DNA from: Planctomycetales bacterium
GTDB taxonomy: Bacteria > Planctomycetota > Planctomycetia > Planctomycetales > Planctomycetaceae
Direction of reading: 5' to 3'
Assembly: GCA_026400835.1 (NCBI GenBank)
Contig: JAPLOA010000109.1
Coordinates: forward strand, 1 to 64,000
Length of the DNA stretch: 64,000 bases
The position numbers and the translations under genes are program-made. Below, piece by piece: positions 47,464-57,226 of the stretch. Under the pieces are notes generated by a model, which searched no databases, was not told the origin of the DNA, and saw only the letters and a program-made list of their open reading frames with translations. How positions within the stretch are numbered: position 1 is the first letter of the stretch; every line of letters begins with the position of its first letter.

Positions 47464-47785
47464 CTGCGCTGACTTTCTGTGTGTAATCAGTTGAAGATTT
47501 GGTTTCGGCTTTTCACGACCAAAGCCACTGTAAGACGATAGGTGAGGGGTCTCTCACCATCTGTCGTAAGGCTTCTGAATTAGCCAGCGTGAAAACTGAA
47601 CGTACGATCACGCAGAGAGCTGAATTTCCATGCAAAGATGCATCCGTTGGTGTTTTCTTAAAGTTTCCACCGGTTTTTTCGAAATAGGACGTCCGTTCAT
47701 CGGAATCCGTTTGTATTCTACTTGTGAACTTCCGATAGATAACAAATTTGTTTTCCATCACTTACGTGCTTGGGGTTGTTTCATC
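47464..47785. other. Intergenic region upstream of the lipoprotein gene
   Basis: No gene supported; open frames that run through it into the lipoprotein lack a signal peptide at their start. It probably carries the promoter for the lipoprotein/DUF1559 transcript. Confidence 0.4.
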
Positions 47786-48262
47786 ATGCGTAGTTTTTTG
47801 GATAGCCGCCATATTCTGCAGATTTCTCAGTATGCAGCGGGTTTTTGTCTATTGGTTTGGGTTATAGGCTGTGGCGAGAGCGGTCCTCCAAAGCCTTCCG
47901 TGTATCCTGTTTCGGGAACGGTTACTGGTGGAAGCGGGGATTTGGCGGGTTGCATTATTACATTCAACCCGACTGACCCAGCCGGAGTTGGTGCAACGGC
48001 GACAATTGGCGCTGGCGGAAAGTTCGTACTGCAGGCGATTGATGGTCGTGAAGGCTGTGGAGTGGGAAGCTACAAAATCACTTTGTCGATGTCTCCGGAT
48101 GCGACGAAAGCGGCGATGATGAAGGCGATGAGTGCCGGTCCCGGCAAAGGTGGGCCGCCGAAGGCGGAGTCGCCCTATCCAGAGAAGTACCAGAAAATGG
48201 ATACATCTGACAAGACAGTGGAAGTCAAAGCTGAGACCAACGTTATCGATGTAGCGCTCTGA
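47786..48262 (+). CDS. Carboxypeptidase-regulatory-like lipoprotein
   Basis: 158 residues from [33 protein letters not shown], a lipoprotein signal with the lipobox VIGC. The mature part has a transthyretin/Ig-like fold: [52 protein letters not shown], then a Lys/Gly/Pro-rich tail. It lies 53 bp before the DUF1559 gene; the pair repeats the module seen at 26-28 kb in the same lipoprotein/DUF1559 association, but with reversed gene order. Likely cell-envelope protein. Confidence 0.85.
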
Positions 48263-48315: not shown

Positions 48316-49332
48316 ATGGTGAAGTCCAGACTTCGAAGAGCGTTTACGCTCATTGAGTTGCTGGTTGTGATTGCAATCATTGCAATTTTGATCGCGTTGC
48401 TGTTGCCTGCTGTCCAGCAGGCTCGTGAATCGGCCCGAAGAACTCAGTGCAAGAACAACCTCAAGCAGTTGGGGTTGGCATTGCACAACTATCATGACGT
48501 GTTTGGTAGTTTTGCCGCCAATGAGATTACTGTTGACGCTTCTTTTACTGGTGGTGGTTACAACGTACCGACGGGTCCGACCGGGCTTCCAACTCTTAGC
48601 TGGTTGGCTCGCATCCTTCCTTACATCGAGCAGGCCCCTCTGTATCAGTCGATTGACATGAGCGGGTTTGCAGGTGCCAATGCTTACACTCGTATTCTCG
48701 GCGACGCTGCCGGGAGTGCCACTTCTGCTCCAGCCGCAAATGTTAGGGCTCGTCGGACTGTCGTGAATGCATTTCTTTGCCCCAGCAATCCGCAGCCTAA
48801 GCAGGTTACTGGTGCAGTCCAAGGGTATTCCTGGAACGATAACGTTGACGGGGCTCGAACAGACTACGTGGGGAGCATGGGTTTCGGTCAGGGTGCTCAC
48901 CGAGATTGTCCATTCGCAACTTACGCCGGTCAGCAGTGGAGTGGTCCGCAGGAAGTCAATGTGCCTCCGATTTCCAACAACGATGGTATCTTTGGATGGC
49001 ATGGTTGTGTGACCATTGCCAATATCGTTGATGGGACATCGAACACGGTTGCTGTCGCTGAAGACATGCACTGGGTGGAGAAAGAAAGCCCCGAGAGAGT
49101 CGCTGGTGATGCTCTGTGGATGAGCGGATACGCGATTCATAGCATCAAGATGGCGCCCAACACAGACCCTAACGGTGACTTCCGTTGTGACCAGTGGAGC
49201 AGCATGCACACTGGCGGTTGCCAAGTGACACTTTGCGACGGTTCCGTAAGATTCGTCAGTGAGAATATCGATTGGACGATTCGCCGTGCCGTAGCGACCC
49301 GGGCAAAGGGTGAAGTCGTAGGAGAGTTCTAA
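48316..49332 (+). CDS. DUF1559 prepilin-like protein
   Basis: 338 residues from [18 protein letters not shown], with a strong Shine-Dalgarno (GGGGAGGT) 7 bases upstream. The pilin signal has Ala instead of Gly before [27 protein letters not shown] and [25 protein letters not shown] (H-x9-DG) are the family marks, ending GEVVGEF. The body differs from the two paralogues at 24-28 kb. It ends at a strong terminator at 49383-49419, so it is separate from the CRTAC1 operon downstream. Confidence 0.93.
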
Positions 49333-49382
49333 GACTTTTTGGTATTCGATTGTTGCAGGCCTTTGCTGTGACGCGATCATGG

Positions 49383-49419
49383 ATCCCTCGGTTGCGATTT
49401 TCGTGGCCGAGGGATTTTT
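49383..49419 (+). terminator. Rho-independent terminator of the DUF1559 gene
   Basis: ATCCCTCGG and CCGAGGGAT pair perfectly (9 bp) around a 15-base loop and run into five Ts. It isolates the lipoprotein/DUF1559 transcript from the operon beginning at 49589. Confidence 0.88.
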
Positions 49420-49588: not shown

Positions 49589-51397
49589 ATGAATTCGTTT
49601 CAGCGCAAGGTTCGGAAAGTGACTTCAGCATACGTTTTGACAGTGAGGTGGATCCTGGTCGTTCTTCTGGTGTCTTATTCCTCAGGATGCCAGCCACAAG
49701 TTGCTCAGAAATCGCCCTCGACGACTCAGACCGTTGAAATGAAGCCACAGAAATCTATTGTGGGTCAGGGCATTCCGTTGGAGCGATTGCGAAGGGCTTT
49801 TGAAACGAACGCTGATTCGACCGTTGGAGAGACATTACGCTTTACGCTTCTTTCTAACGACTGTCGGCCGACATTTAACTATGTGAACGGCAGCCGTGGC
49901 CATCGCCTGATGGTTGAGGCGACGGGCGGTGGTTGCGCCTGGCTCGATTTTGATTGTGACGGCGCATGCGACCTCTACCTCGTGCAAGGCGGGGTTCCAG
50001 ATGCGAAACCACCAGGCTCGGAGTTCACGGACAGGATGTGGAGGTGCCGTGAGGGTCGGTTCAGTGATGTAACATCATCGGTTGGTCTCAATGAGAATCG
50101 CTATGGGCAGGGTGTTTCCGCGGGTGACTTTGACAATGATGGTTTTGAAGACATTTTTGTGACTAACATCGGAGGAAATCAGCTTTTCCGGAACCAGGGT
50201 GATGGAACATTGGAACTCGTCGATCATTGGGGGGGCGAGGACAGCCATCTTTGGAGCACAAGCTCGGCCTGGGGTGATATAGATTCGGATGGCGATCTGG
50301 ATCTCTATGTTTGCAACTACGTCGACTTCGACCCGTACGATCCACAGATCTGCCTGAATGAAGCGAAAGAGACGATACAGTGTGGGCCCAATCAGGTGGA
50401 TCCTGTTCCGGATGAAATGTACTTGAACGACGGTGCCGGAGCATTTCATCCATCAGCAGACACACTGGGACTCAGCGGACCAGGCAATCGCGCGCTGGGC
50501 GTTGTCATTGCGGACTTTGTCGGTGACCGTATTCCAGAGATTTATGTAGCCAACGACGCTACGGCAAATTTTTTGTTCCAACGGGGAGCAGATGGTGTGT
50601 ACTTCGACGTTGCCTCAAGACTGGGTTGTGCTCTTGACAGCAATGGTTCGGCGCAAGCCAGCATGGGAGTCGCCCCAGGTGACTTTAATCGTGATGGGTT
50701 GCTGGATTTGTACCTGACCCACTTTGAGGGTGAATGGAACACCTTATATCAGAACCTTGGCGAATTCGGGTTCAGGGATGTGACAGCCGATGTTCAGGCT
50801 GTTCAGCCGACTCTGCCATGGGTTGGGTTTGGTACCGTGATGGAAGACTTTGATCAAAACGGGAATGACGACATCTTTGTTGCTAATGGCCACATTGATG
50901 ACCTCGGACGCAAGCGAGTGCTGGAGATGCCACCTCAGTTAATGAGTTTTGATGGCAGGGTTCTGAGAGACGTCAGTGCTGCATCGGGAGAGTATTTTGC
51001 CACGCGGAAGATTGGCCGGGGATGCAGCCAGGCCGATTTTGATAACGATGGAGACTTCGACCTTGCAGTGATTCATCACAATCGACCGGCCGAAGTGCTG
51101 GTTAATGAGTCGCATCGGGGTCACTGGATATCGATCGACCTGCGGGGGACGATTTCAAATCGCCGGGGCATTGGAAGCAAGGTCATCGTTCGGCAGGGCA
51201 AAGCAACATTGACCCAACAACTCTACGGCGGTGGAAGTTACTGCAGCAGTCGTCAGCCGAGGCTGGTGTTTGGTTTGGGGGAACTGCAGGAGCCTTGTGA
51301 AATAGAGATTCTATGGCCCGGCGGCGCCCGCAGATCTCTGACGAACGTGTCCGTTGATCAGAACATTGTGATCAAAGAAGAACCGCAGCATGAATAG
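49589..51397 (+). CDS. CRTAC1/UnbV-type FG-GAP lipoprotein 1
   Basis: 602 residues. The signal LTVRWILVVLLVSYSSGC ends in a lipobox, so the protein is lipid-anchored outside the cytoplasm. FG-GAP-like calcium-type blades (DFDCDGACDLYLVQGG, DFDNDGFEDIFVTNIGGNQLFRNQGDG, DSDGDLDLYVCNYVDF, DFNRDGLLDLYLTHFEGEWNTLYQN) form a beta-propeller. The C-terminal ASPIC/UnbV domain is SNRRGIGSKVIVRQGKATLTQQLYGGGSYCSSRQPRLVFGLGE...EILWPGG. These proteins are common in planctomycetes and probably bind ligands or polymers. It is the first gene of a five-gene operon; its stop overlaps the next start by 8 nt. Confidence 0.93.
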   Translation: MNSFQRKVRKVTSAYVLTVRWILVVLLVSYSSGCQPQVAQKSPSTTQTVEMKPQKSIVGQGIPLERLRRAFETNADSTVGETLRFTLLSNDCRPTFNYVNGSRGHRLMVEATGGGCAWLDFDCDGACDLYLVQGGVPDAKPPGSEFTDRMWRCREGRFSDVTSSVGLNENRYGQGVSAGDFDNDGFEDIFVTNIGGNQLFRNQGDGTLELVDHWGGEDSHLWSTSSAWGDIDSDGDLDLYVCNYVDFDPYDPQICLNEAKETIQCGPNQVDPVPDEMYLNDGAGAFHPSADTLGLSGPGNRALGVVIADFVGDRIPEIYVANDATANFLFQRGADGVYFDVASRLGCALDSNGSAQASMGVAPGDFNRDGLLDLYLTHFEGEWNTLYQNLGEFGFRDVTADVQAVQPTLPWVGFGTVMEDFDQNGNDDIFVANGHIDDLGRKRVLEMPPQLMSFDGRVLRDVSAASGEYFATRKIGRGCSQADFDNDGDFDLAVIHHNRPAEVLVNESHRGHWISIDLRGTISNRRGIGSKVIVRQGKATLTQQLYGGGSYCSSRQPRLVFGLGELQEPCEIEILWPGGARRSLTNVSVDQNIVIKEEPQHE

Positions 51398-53291
51398 TTG
51401 GCGACATATTTCTTTGGGCAGAGCGAAAGGCATCCCCAAGCCAACAATGATCGTACGCAATGATTTCTCGGGCGGAATGTTGATCGTTTTCCTCTGCCAT
51501 GTCCTGCTGGCTTTCGGCTGCAGTAAAGGAAAGTCCTCCACGCCTGCGGAAGACGAGCCCCAGGAAACCGTTACGGCTAAGCAGGCAGGGGTTCGCATAT
51601 CGAGCGTGTTCTCCAAACTCAGCAGTGGTGACGAGAAATCGAGTCAAACGGGAGAGTCGACGTCTCGGACGATGTCCCACAATTTTGCTTTTCGGGATGT
51701 AACAGCCCGTGTTGGTCTGGACTTTCACTATGACAACGGGGCACGTGGTCAGCAGCTGATGGTCGAAGCGACAGGAGGTGGTTGCGGATGGATCGATTAC
51801 GAACACGATGGGTTCATTGATATCTATTTTCCGCAGGGAGGAGATCCGGCACGCTCTGGTGCGATGGATCAACCGATTGATCGACTCTTTCGCAATAAGC
51901 ACGGGCAGGTCTTTCAGGACGTGACCGAGGCCGCAGGGATTCGGAACCATGATTACGGACAGGGAGTTGCCGTAGGTGACTTCGATAGTGATGGGTTTGA
52001 CGACCTCTTTGTGACAAATGTCGGTCAGAATCAACTCTATCACAATCAGGGGGATGGCTCATTTGAGGTCGTCCCGGCCGAGGCAGGCTTTCAGGAATCA
52101 TTGTGGAGTACCAGCGCGGCATGGGGTGATGTGGACCGGGACGGTGATCTCGATCTGTATGTCTGCAACTATTGCGACTACGACCCGCGGAGACCAATGC
52201 CGTGTGCCGACGAACAGGGAACACCGTCCATTTGTCATCCCAAGGATGTTAATCCGGTTCCCGACCAGTTCTATCGAAATCTCGGAGACGGGCGATTTGA
52301 GGCGTGTGCCAGGTCATTGGGGTTATTCGGACCGGGAAATCGTGGCTTAGGTGTGGTCATCGCCGACTTCAACAACGACCGCTGGCCGGATATTTACGTT
52401 GCCAACGATACGACAGCGAACTTCCTTTTTCTCAGCGAGAACGCCGTGAGTTTTCGAGAAGCGGCTGGTCTGCTGGGATGTGCTGTCAATGCGCAGGGGG
52501 TTGCTCAGGCGAGTATGGGCGTTGGCTGCGGTGATTATGATAACAATGGTTTCCTTGATCTCTATCTGACGCACTTTACAAACGAGTGGAACACGCTCTA
52601 TTCGAATCTCGGTGATAAAGGATTCTATGATACAACGGCAATCGCCGGACTGGTTGTGCCGACGATGAAACGATTGGCGTTCGGAACGATTATGAATGAT
52701 CTGAATCAGGACGGACGCATGGAGTTATTTGTCGCGAACGGACATATCAATCCGCAGGAATCGGGTGGAAGCGGCTATCGCATGACTCCGCAGCTGTTTT
52801 CGTATAACGGTGTCACCTGGGACGATGTCGGAGATTCTGCCGGAGACTATTTCAAGCGTCCGGTTGTGGGACGCGGTATTGGCACCGGCGATTTTGATAA
52901 CGATGGAAAACTGGACCTGTGCGTTGTTCACCATGATTGTCCGATCGTGTTGCTTCAAAATGAATGTCACGAAGGAACCTGGCTTCAAGTTCGGCTGATC
53001 GGTAGGCAATCAGCACGTTCCGCTGTGGGCACTCGGGTCAGCGTGCAGATGGGAAGCGTCACTCAAATGCAGGAGTTAGTGGGGGGGACAAGCTACTGTT
53101 CTGCGGTGCAATCACAGCTTAATTTTGCTTCGGCGGAACCTCTCAAGGTCTGTTCCCTGCGTATCGAGTGGACAAACGGGGAAACCAGTCTCCTGGAAAA
53201 TGTTCCGTTGAATCAGGCAATCGTTGTGACTGAACCATCGCGCCCACAGCAGGCAGCAAAGTGGGCTATTGTCCATGGTGGGGGAGAATGA
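51390..53291 (+). CDS. CRTAC1/UnbV-type FG-GAP lipoprotein 2
   Basis: 633 residues, paralogue of the upstream gene with the same layout: an N-terminal lipobox (LIVFLCHVLLAFGC, with a later ATG at 51447 also possible), a Ser/Glu linker, FG-GAP blades (DYEHDGFIDIYFPQGG, DFDSDGFDDLFVTNVGQNQLYHNQGDG, DRDGDLDLYVCNYCDYD, DYDNNGFLDLYLTHFTNEWNTLYSN) and an ASPIC/UnbV end (RSAVGTRVSVQMGSVTQMQELVGGTSYCSAV...RIEWTNG). The two proteins share motif order throughout, so they arose by tandem duplication. It overlaps the previous gene and is followed directly by the first TPR gene. Confidence 0.93.
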   Translation: MNSWRHISLGRAKGIPKPTMIVRNDFSGGMLIVFLCHVLLAFGCSKGKSSTPAEDEPQETVTAKQAGVRISSVFSKLSSGDEKSSQTGESTSRTMSHNFAFRDVTARVGLDFHYDNGARGQQLMVEATGGGCGWIDYEHDGFIDIYFPQGGDPARSGAMDQPIDRLFRNKHGQVFQDVTEAAGIRNHDYGQGVAVGDFDSDGFDDLFVTNVGQNQLYHNQGDGSFEVVPAEAGFQESLWSTSAAWGDVDRDGDLDLYVCNYCDYDPRRPMPCADEQGTPSICHPKDVNPVPDQFYRNLGDGRFEACARSLGLFGPGNRGLGVVIADFNNDRWPDIYVANDTTANFLFLSENAVSFREAAGLLGCAVNAQGVAQASMGVGCGDYDNNGFLDLYLTHFTNEWNTLYSNLGDKGFYDTTAIAGLVVPTMKRLAFGTIMNDLNQDGRMELFVANGHINPQESGGSGYRMTPQLFSYNGVTWDDVGDSAGDYFKRPVVGRGIGTGDFDNDGKLDLCVVHHDCPIVLLQNECHEGTWLQVRLIGRQSARSAVGTRVSVQMGSVTQMQELVGGTSYCSAVQSQLNFASAEPLKVCSLRIEWTNGETSLLENVPLNQAIVVTEPSRPQQAAKWAIVHGGGE

Positions 53292-53292
53292 G

Positions 53293-54519
53293 ATGTCTCA
53301 ACGTCTGCGAAGCTGCCTGAAAGCCATTTTGCTTCTTGTCGTGGTCATCATTGGGGCTCGACTTTTGCTGTCCGGATGGAATGTGTGGCAGATCCGTTCG
53401 TTGACGGCCGAATGTTCTCGATTGGAACAGACGGGCAGTTGGAGCCGAGTTTTGCGGACAGCTCGCAAGTGGAAAAGCTACGCACCGGAGAGCAGACAGG
53501 CTCGTCAGAAAGGAGCCACCGCTGGTCGAGCGCTTCGTGATGTCAGTGCGGTTAAAGAGTTTCTCGAAGGATATCCGTGCCAGGTTGTTGACGATGTTCC
53601 ATGGCGTTCCATGCTGGCTGATCTGGAGTTCGGACCCCTCAATGATCCGTTTGCGGGTGCTGAGGTGTGCCGAGAAATCCTGAGGGTGCAACCGGACCAT
53701 CGCGATAGTCATCGCAGACTGGTTTTCTTTTATGCAATGACGCAACAGCAAATTGCGATGCACGACCAAATACAGGCGGCTCTGCAGAGCGAGTGTGAGG
53801 TACCGGAGGTTTTCGTCTACAGTTTTCTCGGGCCAGGTTTGCAACTGAGAAACGGGATCCCTACGACAGAGCGATGGCTGACTGCTTTCCCTCAAAGTGA
53901 GCTGCTTCTGGTGGCGCGGGCTCTGCATTTTGCAAGATCTGTTGAAGGTGCCGTTCCGACCAACGATGAGTCTGAAGCGGAAAAAGTTCGGCAGCTGCAG
54001 AGTGAAAGGAGTGAGAAGCTGGAAGAGCTTCTCGTGGCGTTTCCAGAAAATCAGGAGTTACAGGCCTATCATCTCAGCGAATTTATTCAGTCCGGAGATC
54101 TGGTTCGCGCCGGAGAAGTGTTGACACAAGCAACATCTTCTGCCGACCTTGATTTTCGTTTCTGGCACGCTCGAGGCTGGGTCTTTGCGAGGATCAAGGA
54201 GTACGAAGAAGCGGAACGATGTTATCGTCGGGCATTGTCTTTGCATTGTCTGGATTGGCGAACACATTTTCACCTTGCCGAACTTTTGCGTGCGCTAGGT
54301 CGGATGGACGAATCAGTGGTGGTCGGTGAGTTGGCATCGGATGGCCGCAGTCTGGAACGTGAGTTGTTGTTGCAGCCGGATATGTTGTCCGTTTCTCAAG
54401 ACTTGTATGTGCGACTTGCGAAATACTCACAACAATGTGGGGCTGAAAGTTATACAAAGTGTCTGCAGCGATACCTGAACAAATCCGGGGTCTCTCAGAA
54501 GAGCAATGTTGAGAAATAG
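53293..54519 (+). CDS. Membrane-anchored TPR protein 1
   Basis: 408 residues. Start MSQRLRSCLKAILLLVV at 53293 is preferred because GGGGGAGA lies just upstream; an earlier ATG at 53269 overlaps the previous gene. An N-terminal membrane helix (ILLLVVVIIGARLLLSGW) leads to a helical periplasmic domain with TPR units: EVCREILRVQPDHRDSHRRL, FWHARGWVFARIKEYEEAERCYRRALSL, DWRTHFHLAELLRALGRMDES. It is closely paralogous to the next gene. It likely scaffolds a complex with the UnbV proteins or the cytochrome. Confidence 0.88.
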   Translation: MSQRLRSCLKAILLLVVVIIGARLLLSGWNVWQIRSLTAECSRLEQTGSWSRVLRTARKWKSYAPESRQARQKGATAGRALRDVSAVKEFLEGYPCQVVDDVPWRSMLADLEFGPLNDPFAGAEVCREILRVQPDHRDSHRRLVFFYAMTQQQIAMHDQIQAALQSECEVPEVFVYSFLGPGLQLRNGIPTTERWLTAFPQSELLLVARALHFARSVEGAVPTNDESEAEKVRQLQSERSEKLEELLVAFPENQELQAYHLSEFIQSGDLVRAGEVLTQATSSADLDFRFWHARGWVFARIKEYEEAERCYRRALSLHCLDWRTHFHLAELLRALGRMDESVVVGELASDGRSLERELLLQPDMLSVSQDLYVRLAKYSQQCGAESYTKCLQRYLNKSGVSQKSNVEK

Positions 54520-54596
54520 ACCTCGTCGAGTGGATACAGGAATGTTGTCTGAGCCTAATGTTGCCGTCAGGCGTGGGTATTCCAGGGCAGTGATCT

Positions 54597-55850
54597 ATGA
54601 GTGATCAGCAGAGTGATTTTGAACGGCCGCAAACCGAAAACAGCGGGCACAGAATACGAAGTGGCTTTCTGAAACTCCGTCGATACTGGTTTGTTGTTGG
54701 CATGCTGCTTGTGGCGATGGCTTTGTGGGCCGGTTACCATGCAGTGCGGTCGCAAACACAGAAGATGTGCCGCAAAGCTCAGCAGGAGGAACGCTGGGAA
54801 GATCTTGAGACATTGAGTCGAAGGTGGACAGATTGGGAACCGCACGAGGCCGATGCATGGTTGTATCTTGCGGATGCTGTGCAGCACCAGAACCGATTTC
54901 TCGAAGCTGCTGAATACCTTGGCGAAATTCCGGTGACTTCTCCGAAGGCCGCGAAGGCATTTCTGGTTCAAGCTGAACTCCTGTTTGGACCAGCCAACCA
55001 GCCACTTGATGGTGAGGTAGCGTGCAGAAAACTGCTGAAGCTGGAACCTCGGGCCGCGAAGGCGCACGCACTGCTGATTCGCTTCTATGCGTATACATTG
55101 CAGCGAAAAAAGCTGGCGGAACAGTTCAAAGAGGCCATTCGCCTGGGGTTGGAGCCCAAGGATGCCTACATCTACTACCTTCTCACAGACAGCCTGAATA
55201 TGTCGCAGGGGGTCGAGCTGAATACCTTGTGGCTCACAACTTCTCCAGAGGAAGAGGTCTTTCTCGTGGCCCGCGCGCTGCAGTGGCGAGAACAGCATAA
55301 TACACAAGCCGGCGAGACGGCAGATGTTAATGCTGATGCCGTCATGAATGAACGGGAGATGCAGGTTCTGAATCTTTTGGAACGGTTCCCGAATAATGCA
55401 AACCTGCTGGCCGACCAGATAGACGCCGAGATTGTGAAAGGACGACTTAACCGAGTGGTTGAATTGCTGTCTCAGGCTCCGGCTGATGCTGAGACGGATA
55501 ACCGATTCTGGCGATACAAGGGCTGGGTTCACTATGCGAAGCAGGAATTTGGCGAGGCTGAAGAGGCCTATCGTACCGCATTGAAGCTGCATCCAATGGA
55601 TTGGCAGTCCATGAACCGTCTGTTGGAGGTATTGCGTTCTCGACAGGAAACAGCCGAGATCGAACGGATCCAGGCTCTTGTCGCACGAATTCAGGATCTG
55701 CGTACAAGCGTACGTTCCATTGAGACAATCGAAGATTGTCCGTTGGAACTGTTGCGGATTCTCGGACAGGTTGCACGCGATTGCGGAGACAGTCTGGTTG
55801 GAGATGCTTTGAGGCAGCGGTTAGGAAATACTGATGGAGCAAGACCTTGA
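54597..55850 (+). CDS. Membrane-anchored TPR protein 2
   Basis: 417 residues with one N-terminal membrane helix (YWFVVGMLLVAMALWAGYHAV) and a TPR-rich periplasmic domain (EAAEYLGEIPVTSPKAAKAFLV, EVACRKLLKLEPRAAKAHALL, FWRYKGWVHYAKQEFGEAEEAYRTALKLHPMDW). The FWxxxGW...EAExxYRxAL block is shared with the preceding gene, so both come from a duplication. Its last base is the first base of the cytochrome ATG (TGATG) and the whole run is tightly packed, so it is cotranscribed. Confidence 0.9.
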   Translation: MSDQQSDFERPQTENSGHRIRSGFLKLRRYWFVVGMLLVAMALWAGYHAVRSQTQKMCRKAQQEERWEDLETLSRRWTDWEPHEADAWLYLADAVQHQNRFLEAAEYLGEIPVTSPKAAKAFLVQAELLFGPANQPLDGEVACRKLLKLEPRAAKAHALLIRFYAYTLQRKKLAEQFKEAIRLGLEPKDAYIYYLLTDSLNMSQGVELNTLWLTTSPEEEVFLVARALQWREQHNTQAGETADVNADAVMNEREMQVLNLLERFPNNANLLADQIDAEIVKGRLNRVVELLSQAPADAETDNRFWRYKGWVHYAKQEFGEAEEAYRTALKLHPMDWQSMNRLLEVLRSRQETAEIERIQALVARIQDLRTSVRSIETIEDCPLELLRILGQVARDCGDSLVGDALRQRLGNTDGARP

Positions 55851-57226
55851 TGTTAACTTACATACGAAGGCACTCAGTAGTCTTTGCATTGTTCAGTGTG
55901 ATCACGATCGGAGCCATCTATGCTGTTCTGACTTTAGATCAGGTAAGAGTGGGCGAGGGAATTCGTCGCCCACTCAAGGAGTTGAAAGACGGCGTATTCT
56001 TCATTAGTCCCGAAGACTATGCGGGCACCGTTGGACATCTCACCCGAAAGAAAGTTGTTTTTCTGCCAGCTCCGCAACAGAAACTCTCCCTGTCGAAACC
56101 TGCTGTGGCTGCTGCAGACTACCTCGGGCCGGAAAGCTGTCGCGAGTGTCACGCCGCTTATGTCGAGACTTCAGCAGCGACAGCTCATTACAGGACATGC
56201 CGCCTCCCCAGCGAAACATCTCTTCCGGATGATTTTGGTGAAGGTCGCAATATCCTTCGTACAGCAACCCCTGACATGCTGTTTGAGATGTCTCGGTCCG
56301 GCGACAAGTACTATCAGTCAGTGGTGGTGTTGCGTCGAGGCGTGGAGTTCGAACACAAGGAAGAAATCGGCATAGTGACAGGATCTGCAAAGTATGGGCA
56401 GACGTTTCTCTTCTGGAAAGATCAGTGTCTGTATGAGCTTCCCGTGAGTCACTTTACGGAGCTTGGCGAATGGGTTAACAGCCCAGGTTATGTTGATGGT
56501 GTTGCAAACTTTGCCAGACCCATATTCGCACGCTGCCTTGAATGCCATAGTACATGGATCGAACAATCCGGTGTCCCATTGAATCGCTTCAAGGAACAGC
56601 CATCGATACTCGGAATTACGTGCGAAAAGTGCCACGGTCCGGGTCGAGAACATGTTGAATATCACCGGCGTGAGCCTGACGACCGAACAGCCCGGCATAT
56701 TGTGAATCCTGGAAATCTGTCTCGGGAACGTTCGATCGATATGTGTTCATTGTGTCACTCGGGTGCGGGTGAGCCATTGCAGGATCCTTTCAGCTTTCGG
56801 CCGGGCGACCAGCTGGCAGATTTCGTGAAGATACCCCCCGACTCAGAGTCTGGTCCGGGAGGAGTTCATTCAGCCAATCAGCAGGCTCGAATGGCACTGA
56901 GCCAGTGTTTTCAGCAGAGCTCCGATATGCAATGCACAACGTGTCATGATCCACATCATCAGGAGCGTGGAAATGCGAAGCTCTTCATTGAACGCTGCTT
57001 TAAATGCCACGAATCCAGTGACTGCAGAATTGTGAAGGAAATGGGGGTTGCAGCTGAGGGACGATGTATCGATTGCCACATGCCAAGCCGGGCGGATTCG
57101 CAAATGCCGATGCAGAAGGAAAAGGAAACGTTCCGCCCCATGCTGCGAGATCACCTGATCGACATCTGGGATGATAAAACAGCTGAGGTGCTGAAGGAGA
57201 TAGCGTCTGGTGCGAGCAAGCCATAG
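55850..57226 (+). CDS. Heptaheme cytochrome c (cytochrome c554-like)
   Basis: 458 residues; ATG at 55850 overlaps the TPR stop (a TTG one codon earlier is possible). A signal anchor (VVFALFSVITIGAIYAVL) exports it. Seven CXXCH heme sites are visible in order: CRECH, CLECH, CEKCH, CSLCH, CTTCH, CFKCH and CIDCH. The spacing and the FARCLECHSTW and SDMQCTTCHDPHH blocks fit the c554/multiheme electron-transfer group. It probably passes electrons to or from a periplasmic partner. It ends the five-gene operon; no terminal oxidase is near. Confidence 0.93.
   Translation: MLTYIRRHSVVFALFSVITIGAIYAVLTLDQVRVGEGIRRPLKELKDGVFFISPEDYAGTVGHLTRKKVVFLPAPQQKLSLSKPAVAAADYLGPESCRECHAAYVETSAATAHYRTCRLPSETSLPDDFGEGRNILRTATPDMLFEMSRSGDKYYQSVVVLRRGVEFEHKEEIGIVTGSAKYGQTFLFWKDQCLYELPVSHFTELGEWVNSPGYVDGVANFARPIFARCLECHSTWIEQSGVPLNRFKEQPSILGITCEKCHGPGREHVEYHRREPDDRTARHIVNPGNLSRERSIDMCSLCHSGAGEPLQDPFSFRPGDQLADFVKIPPDSESGPGGVHSANQQARMALSQCFQQSSDMQCTTCHDPHHQERGNAKLFIERCFKCHESSDCRIVKEMGVAAEGRCIDCHMPSRADSQMPMQKEKETFRPMLRDHLIDIWDDKTAEVLKEIASGASKP

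Follow-up and report, generated by a model that had tools for sequence, protein, structure and literature searches.

A prepilin-linked UnbV/TPR gene module with a heptaheme cytochrome, a candidate cell-envelope redox complex in planctomycetes

What do two UnbV lipoproteins, two TPR proteins and a seven-heme cytochrome do side by side in a planctomycete? The question is raised by five adjacent genes on contig JAPLOA010000109.1 of a Planctomycetales bacterium (assembly GCA_026400835.1), within a stretch of 64,000 nucleotides that is called the window throughout (it lies on contig C30; the genome measures 7.58 Mb). A preliminary description, made from the sequence of the window, took the five genes for an operon bounded upstream by a terminator and proposed an electron-transfer or polymer-handling system. 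The observation behind that proposal is confirmed and its interpretation partly supported. The answer that we favor, at roughly even confidence, is that these genes and the two upstream of them, whose products are a prepilin-like protein of the DUF1559 family and a small lipoprotein, encode one planctomycete cell-envelope redox complex. Carrying this answer are a gene order shared with another genus, the age of the two gene pairs, the linkage of the genes in other genomes and the predicted fold of the cytochrome.

Gene content and layout of the locus

The genes and signals concerned are as follows.

47786..48262, + strand: small lipoprotein; probable start codon within the listed open reading frame 47630-48262; lipobox-like VIGC near the N-terminus, seen by eye
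48316..49332, + strand: DUF1559 prepilin-like protein; ATG start (listed open reading frame from TTG 48274)
49381..49417, + strand: terminator-like hairpin in the DUF1559/UnbA interval, a 17-pair stem followed by T, found as a pattern match only
49589..51397, + strand: UnbA, FG-GAP/UnbV_ASPIC (CRTAC1-like) lipoprotein, 602 aa (open reading frame list, Pfam)
51390..53291, + strand: UnbB, FG-GAP/UnbV_ASPIC lipoprotein, 633 aa, with an 8 bp overlap with UnbA (open reading frame list, Pfam)
53293..54519, + strand: TprA, TPR protein of 408 aa (Pfam TPR) with a single hydrophobic segment at the N-terminus
54597..55850, + strand: TprB, TPR protein of 417 aa (Pfam TPR) with a single hydrophobic segment at the N-terminus; its gene is preceded by a 77 bp gap
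55850..57226, + strand: heptaheme c-type cytochrome, 458 aa, with seven CXXCH motifs, an N-terminal hydrophobic anchor and, in an AlphaFold2 model, an OcwA/MccA-like fold

The five genes from UnbA to the cytochrome all lie on the + strand, and neighbors overlap or are separated by 1-77 bp, which bears out the tight packing first reported; this spacing suggests a single transcript for the unit. The start of TprA is most likely the ATG at 53293, 1 bp past the UnbB stop codon (the listed TTG is at 53269), and the ATG of the cytochrome gene shares one base with the TprB stop codon. A TTG alternative at 55847 would yield a cytochrome of 459 aa, the version that all residue numbers below follow. Pfam and the motif count agree with the initial assignment of two UnbV lipoproteins, two TPR proteins and a seven-CXXCH cytochrome. 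Both UnbA and UnbB carry FG-GAP_3 and UnbV_ASPIC, the C-terminal ASPIC-UnbV domain scoring above the curated cut-off in each. Human CRTAC1 (PDB 9etn), which UnbB matches at E 2.1e-13, likewise combines FG-GAP repeats with an ASPIC-UnbV domain; unlike CRTAC1, UnbA and UnbB are bacterial, have lipobox-like N-termini, are encoded in tandem and are tied to TPR and cytochrome genes. The DUF1559 protein matches PF07596 (1.2e-50) and N_methyl in Pfam and has H-X9-DG at its C-terminus. The Pfam scan gave no family for the small lipoprotein, and PHROGs no match for the three proteins tried.

One N-terminal hydrophobic segment is present in each of the five proteins, and lipobox-like cysteines can be recognized by eye in UnbA and UnbB. 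With the CXXCH motifs, these features predict that all parts lie outside the membrane. No porin or outer-membrane beta-barrel exceeded the Pfam cut-off among ten window proteins encoded between 46195 and 60323, three of which have no family; a barrel may be encoded elsewhere.

A six-gene block shared with another genus

Two genomes of genus g76, another genus of the same family, contain the genes for the lipoprotein, DUF1559 protein, UnbA, UnbB, TprA and TprB in the same order and strand, as one-to-one orthologues (locus L167 in genome G169, locus L168 in genome G182). Identities to the window proteins, in L167 and L168 respectively, are 38.5 and 33% for the lipoprotein, 56 and 51% for the DUF1559 protein, 57 and 52% for UnbA, 53 and 51% for UnbB, 38 and 37% for TprA, and 47 and 43% for TprB. 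Judged from this orthology, the conserved unit begins upstream of the hairpin, and the lipoprotein and DUF1559 genes belong to the module. The terminator proposed as upstream boundary corresponds to the terminator-like 17-pair hairpin, which lies inside the conserved unit. The hairpin scan returned 12 sites overall, against 9.1 expected, and the length of the stem is the sole support for this one.

With 65 DUF1559 matches in the genome, and only 33% identity to the DUF1559 protein of a second type of locus (type A, below), the window's DUF1559 gene might have been a chance neighbor. This was rejected: the protein is 51-56% identical to its counterparts in L167 and L168, versus at most 39% to the DUF1559 proteins of its own genome (the seven others at UnbV loci, which were those compared). 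Also set aside was the order UnbA-UnbB-TprA-TprB-cytochrome as the conserved unit. Apart from the window's own, none of the loci read showed that exact order; what is conserved instead are the six genes upstream of the cytochrome. Conservation of gene order, which the preliminary description had set as a test, therefore holds for those six genes, while the five-gene order and the strand and subclass of the cytochrome vary. In both g76 genomes the block is followed, on the opposite strand, by a gene for a TPR-fused heptaheme cytochrome of 656-695 aa, 27-28% identical to that of the window.

UnbA and UnbB are paralogues (45% identity over 600 aa), as are TprA and TprB (31% over 337 aa), so that each pair is a duplication, as first proposed. 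In phylogenetic trees each of the four window proteins groups with its own counterpart in L167 and L168, with support of 100/100 for UnbA, 90/96 (weaker) for UnbB and 100/99 for both TprA and TprB. Since each copy groups with its own counterpart in the other genus, both duplications predate the split of the genera and both copies have been kept. A first tree, built without these closest relatives, had made UnbA and UnbB sisters (100/97), as a recent local duplication would; the addition of L167 and L168 split them, and a recent origin was rejected. That the genes were duplicated and then retained as pairs makes a two-plus-two assembly of UnbA/UnbB and TprA/TprB plausible. On these comparisons the module is larger than first described and more conserved than the window sequence alone could reveal, and its pairs are old.

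Fold and heme arrangement of the cytochrome

The cytochrome has CXXCH motifs at residues 98, 230, 259, 300, 363, 384 and 407 and matches several multiheme c models in Pfam. A profile search of solved structures placed OcwA (PDB 6i5b), a nonaheme cytochrome from the outer cell wall of Thermincola potens, first (3.2e-22); MccA, an octaheme sulfite reductase (PDB 4rkm), scored 2.2e-15. An AlphaFold2 model built from a 65-row alignment reached a predicted local distance difference test score of 86.5 and a predicted template modeling score of 0.85; it replaced a first model (15 rows, score 55), which was discarded. Foldseek matched the predicted model to OcwA at 4.2e-10 and to MccA at 1.1e-3. The VIA Z scores of the same model were 16.5 for OcwA (298 residues, 3.2 A), 11.1 for the undecaheme S-layer cytochrome 6qvm and 9.7 for MccA (300 residues), well ahead of other solved matches, among which NrfA (5.6) and c554 (5.2) were low. 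Matches to lipocalin and penicillin-binding homologue folds were set aside; they align mainly to the beta domain. Two elements of the cytochrome can be placed on the DNA.

56249..56509, + strand: beta-strand domain, residues about 135-221, between heme motifs 1 and 2 (model secondary structure)
56534..56548, + strand: CXXCH motif 2, residues 230-234; as it aligns with heme motif 2 of OcwA, its heme is predicted to be open and to bind the substrate

The strands of the model (residues 136-221) fall between the motifs at 98 and 230, the place that a beta domain also occupies in OcwA. According to the accessible text of PMC6703420, this extra domain is common to MccA and OcwA and absent from other NrfA-family proteins. 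Heme motifs 1-4 align with OcwA motifs 1-4 and the last motif, CHMP, with OcwA motif 8; motifs 5 and 6 would correspond, by order only, to OcwA motifs 6 and 7. The order of the motifs then leaves OcwA hemes 5 and 9 with no apparent counterpart, seven hemes standing against nine. The C-terminal three-helix bundle of OcwA also has no counterpart in the model, which ends in one helix (residues 442-454). As for MccA, its CHDPH and CHMP motifs align and the beta domain is common to both proteins, as far as MccA is described in the accessible sources; the window protein differs from it in having seven CXXCH, with no eighth heme motif seen. The predicted fold is thus that of multiheme terminal reductases, which lends support to the electron-transfer system first suggested, and the protein is best described from its model as a relative of the OcwA/MccA branch that is neither an MccA nor an OcwA.

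Six histidines outside the CXXCH motifs are conserved in the 65-row alignment, which includes the window protein (114, 269, 273, 341, 370 and 436; H273 least, in 51 of 65 rows). Six extra histidines against seven hemes would be in keeping with a single open heme; heme 2 is the most likely candidate, predicted from the alignment to be the sole heme without a histidine distal ligand. Hemes 2 and 5 of OcwA are open, and for OcwA as for MccA heme 2 is described as the active site; nitrite is reduced by OcwA and hydroxylamine reacts with it, whereas it did not reduce sulfite (PMC6703420, accessible text). Two cysteines outside the heme motifs are conserved as well, Cys354 (56906-56908) in all 65 rows and Cys393 (57023-57025) in 61; they may make up either a disulfide or a metal site. 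An MccA-like copper site at these residues was considered and not confirmed, the aligned segment of MccA having no cysteine opposite Cys393.

Could the cytochrome be a plain electron conduit or an extracellular terminal reductase, passing respiratory electrons to the surface along a pilin-based fiber without small-molecule catalysis? Its closest folds, OcwA (a cell-surface terminal reductase) and then the S-layer cytochrome 6qvm, point that way, as do the prepilin-like DUF1559 protein, the lipobox-like cysteines seen by eye and the hydrophobic N-termini. On the other side, the Pfam scan of window genes turned up neither a porin nor a second conduit cytochrome, the cytochrome carries an N-terminal hydrophobic anchor, and at least one heme is without a conserved histidine ligand, an arrangement more like that of an enzyme than of a wire. 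We consider this explanation rather unlikely.

Linkage in other genomes and proposed function

The UnbB query found matches in 75 of 170 family genomes at 1e-110, the own genome included. In 24 genomes of the set G001-G048, 17 of 31 UnbB-like genes have a heptaheme cytochrome match within 5 kb, compared with about 0.4% expected from a rough density estimate, and in 16 of the 17 linked pairs the UnbV gene lies upstream on the same strand; the cytochromes linked in these genomes are of another, long class. Twenty UnbB-like neighborhoods were read, and contained a DUF1559 gene in 19 cases, a TPR gene of the TprA/B family in 19, and a cytochrome with at least seven CXXCH in 14 (11 of 17 when loci L182-L184, chosen for a known nearby cytochrome match, are left aside). 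The cytochrome query itself matched 43 of 79 genomes at 1e-20 and 21 of the 170 family genomes at 1e-80, both counts including the own genome; in the family search identity outside the window reached at most 43%, and one of the matches is the paralogue on contig C53, at 40%.

A scan of named genomes yielded 59 cytochrome loci (some of them near-duplicates), at most 46% identical to the window's and mostly from Planctomycetota, with some from Gemmatimonadota, Acidobacteriota and Bacteroidota and one other. UnbV lies within 3 kb at 20 of 42 loci of the short class (cytochromes below 600 aa, fragments included; 12 of 23 when 3 kb are visible on both sides) and at 2 of 17 loci of the long class (1 of 10). 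Two arrangements recur: type A, TPR-cytochrome-UnbV-DUF1559-UnbV-TPR, complete or partial, and type B, closer to the window, in which one cytochrome accompanies UnbV and TPR in varied orders (L092, L098, L099). At L080, L084 and L088 two heptaheme cytochromes stand in tandem, with no UnbV detected; a Clp ATPase gene (Clp_N, AAA_2) lies near the tandem pair of L088 and near the L092 cytochrome. In the bacteroidote Flavitalea sp. BT771 (L117, 5705-14062), a heptaheme cytochrome of the family shares its locus with three genes of the glucoamylase family, one for a laminin-G protein and one for SusD.

The genome of the window holds 13 UnbV matches at 11 loci. A TPR gene or fusion is present at 10 of these (none was seen at C74, where only some neighbors were scanned) and DUF1559 lies within 4 kb at 7 (binomial about 1e-6); five of six Cytochrome_C554 matches, or four of five loci, adjoin one of the 11 (binomial about 2e-7). 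These binomials treat the genome as a single line, with about 62 DUF1559 genes estimated from the 65 matches and distances read by hand. What recurs is the combination of UnbV, TPR and DUF1559, which some of the loci supplement with a multiheme cytochrome. L144 (G000:C53, 5620-15688) is a complete type A locus whose cytochrome paralogue is 39-40% identical to the window's. L146 (G000:C40, 9741-18874) has two short heptaheme cytochromes (23-26%) with UnbV, TPR and DUF1559 genes, and among them a 744-aa protein without Pfam family. At L139 (G000:C11, 4326-9684) a 1049-aa c554 and TPR protein with five CXXCH is encoded directly upstream of an UnbV gene.

The abundance of the families concerned invites the view that UnbV, TPR, DUF1559 and cytochrome genes cluster loosely in planctomycetes with no joint function. 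The 65 DUF1559 matches are in keeping with it, as are the gene order that differs between loci and the many cytochromes of the family without UnbV. We hold this view to be very unlikely, since an orthologous six-gene block recurs in the same order in two genomes of another genus, linkage far exceeds the density expectation, and TPR is fused with both partners, with the cytochrome in some relatives and with UnbV at one locus of the own genome.

Polymer handling, the other possibility first raised, received little support, one bacteroidote cytochrome relative in a SusD/glucoamylase locus. In such a system UnbV propellers on pilin-like fibers would bind polysaccharide on a TPR scaffold, the cytochrome feeding an oxidative step or being incidental. 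Besides the Flavitalea locus, it draws on the report that pili-like fibers of planctomycetes bind dextran (PMC5394234, accessible text) and on the own-genome loci C68 and C73, where UnbV, TPR and DUF1559 occur together and the stretch read contains no heptaheme cytochrome. Among the ten window proteins scanned, none passed the Pfam cut-off as a glycoside hydrolase or binding module, and the cytochrome has a strong redox fold that is repeatedly linked to UnbV; polymer capture seems quite unlikely to us.

In the redox complex that we favor, redox chemistry would fall to the heptaheme cytochrome, a relative of OcwA and MccA that is anchored in the membrane and is without OcwA heme 5, heme 9 and the three-helix bundle. 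Its hemes would relay electrons either towards or away from a substrate, small or extracellular, at heme 2. Both beta-propeller lipoproteins of the UnbV/CRTAC1 type, together with both TPR proteins, may make up a paired scaffold in which the cytochrome is held and positioned; the prepilin-like protein may extend or anchor the complex. A bolder form, possible though somewhat doubtful, is that a heteromeric pair of propeller lipoproteins and a heteromeric TPR pair, tied to a prepilin, carry a heptaheme reductase of the MccA/OcwA type, located at the inner membrane or beyond it, as an undescribed class of machine; the scaffold, two-fold and asymmetric, would have arisen by gene duplication and been retained since.

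A comparable neighborhood is on record. According to the accessible text of PMC12758564, a CRTAC1-family FG-GAP gene adjoins hydrazine-synthase-like heme-protein genes in non-anammox bacteria (clades I-III), with c554 domains in clade I. Heme-protein and CRTAC1-family neighbors are thus common to those clusters and to the window; they differ in that the TPR pair and DUF1559 go unmentioned in the accessible text. Pfam named no hydrazine synthase (HZS) subunit homologue in the five proteins, no direct comparison with HZS having been made. The window cytochrome differs from OcwA, too, in its linkage to UnbV, TPR and DUF1559 genes.

Several observations weigh against a redox complex of this kind. 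The case for a putative complex is built on gene content, sequence comparison and predicted structure, and the openness of heme 2 is a prediction from the alignment. Taken alone, the cytochrome sequence is ambiguous: its best Pfam match is MtrC/MtrF domain II/IV, its best NCBIfam match the GSU2203 decaheme model, below cut-off, and 6r2q_A is level with MccA in the profile search. The cytochrome is also the least fixed part of the module, being inverted and divergent in L167 and L168, and elsewhere than at the module those genomes carry other heptaheme genes that resemble the window's more closely (35%). Of 392 genomes sampled across the phylum, only 8, the own genome included, match a profile of the close cytochrome class at 1e-60. 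Fourteen of the 31 UnbB-like matches have no cytochrome match within 5 kb (three of them start no more than about 110 bases from the end of a contig), and UnbV is missing within 3 kb at 22 of the 42 short-class loci (11 of 23 with 3 kb visible each side), including some of Gemmatimonadota, Stieleria and Acidobacteriota and tandem-cytochrome loci, as well as at all but two of the 17 long-class loci in the scan of named genomes. Finally, hydrazine-synthase-like clade IV is without the FG-GAP gene (PMC12758564, accessible text).

No description of the module was recognized in the literature searched for it and its parts, although a mention inside the body of a paper is possible. The system is of a known multiheme kind, with a partner set for which these searches gave no description. 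For bacterial UnbV and DUF1559 proteins, no tested function was met in the literature consulted on this point, which offered nothing beyond an older annotation of DUF1559 as solute-binding (PMC2754498, accessible text). Characterized members of the cytochrome group serve nitrogen and sulfur chemistry and extracellular respiration (PMC6703420, accessible text). To that OcwA/MccA group the window cytochrome adds a heptaheme, bundle-less branch, and the linking of UnbV and DUF1559 to a reductase-type cytochrome gives two orphan families a testable role.

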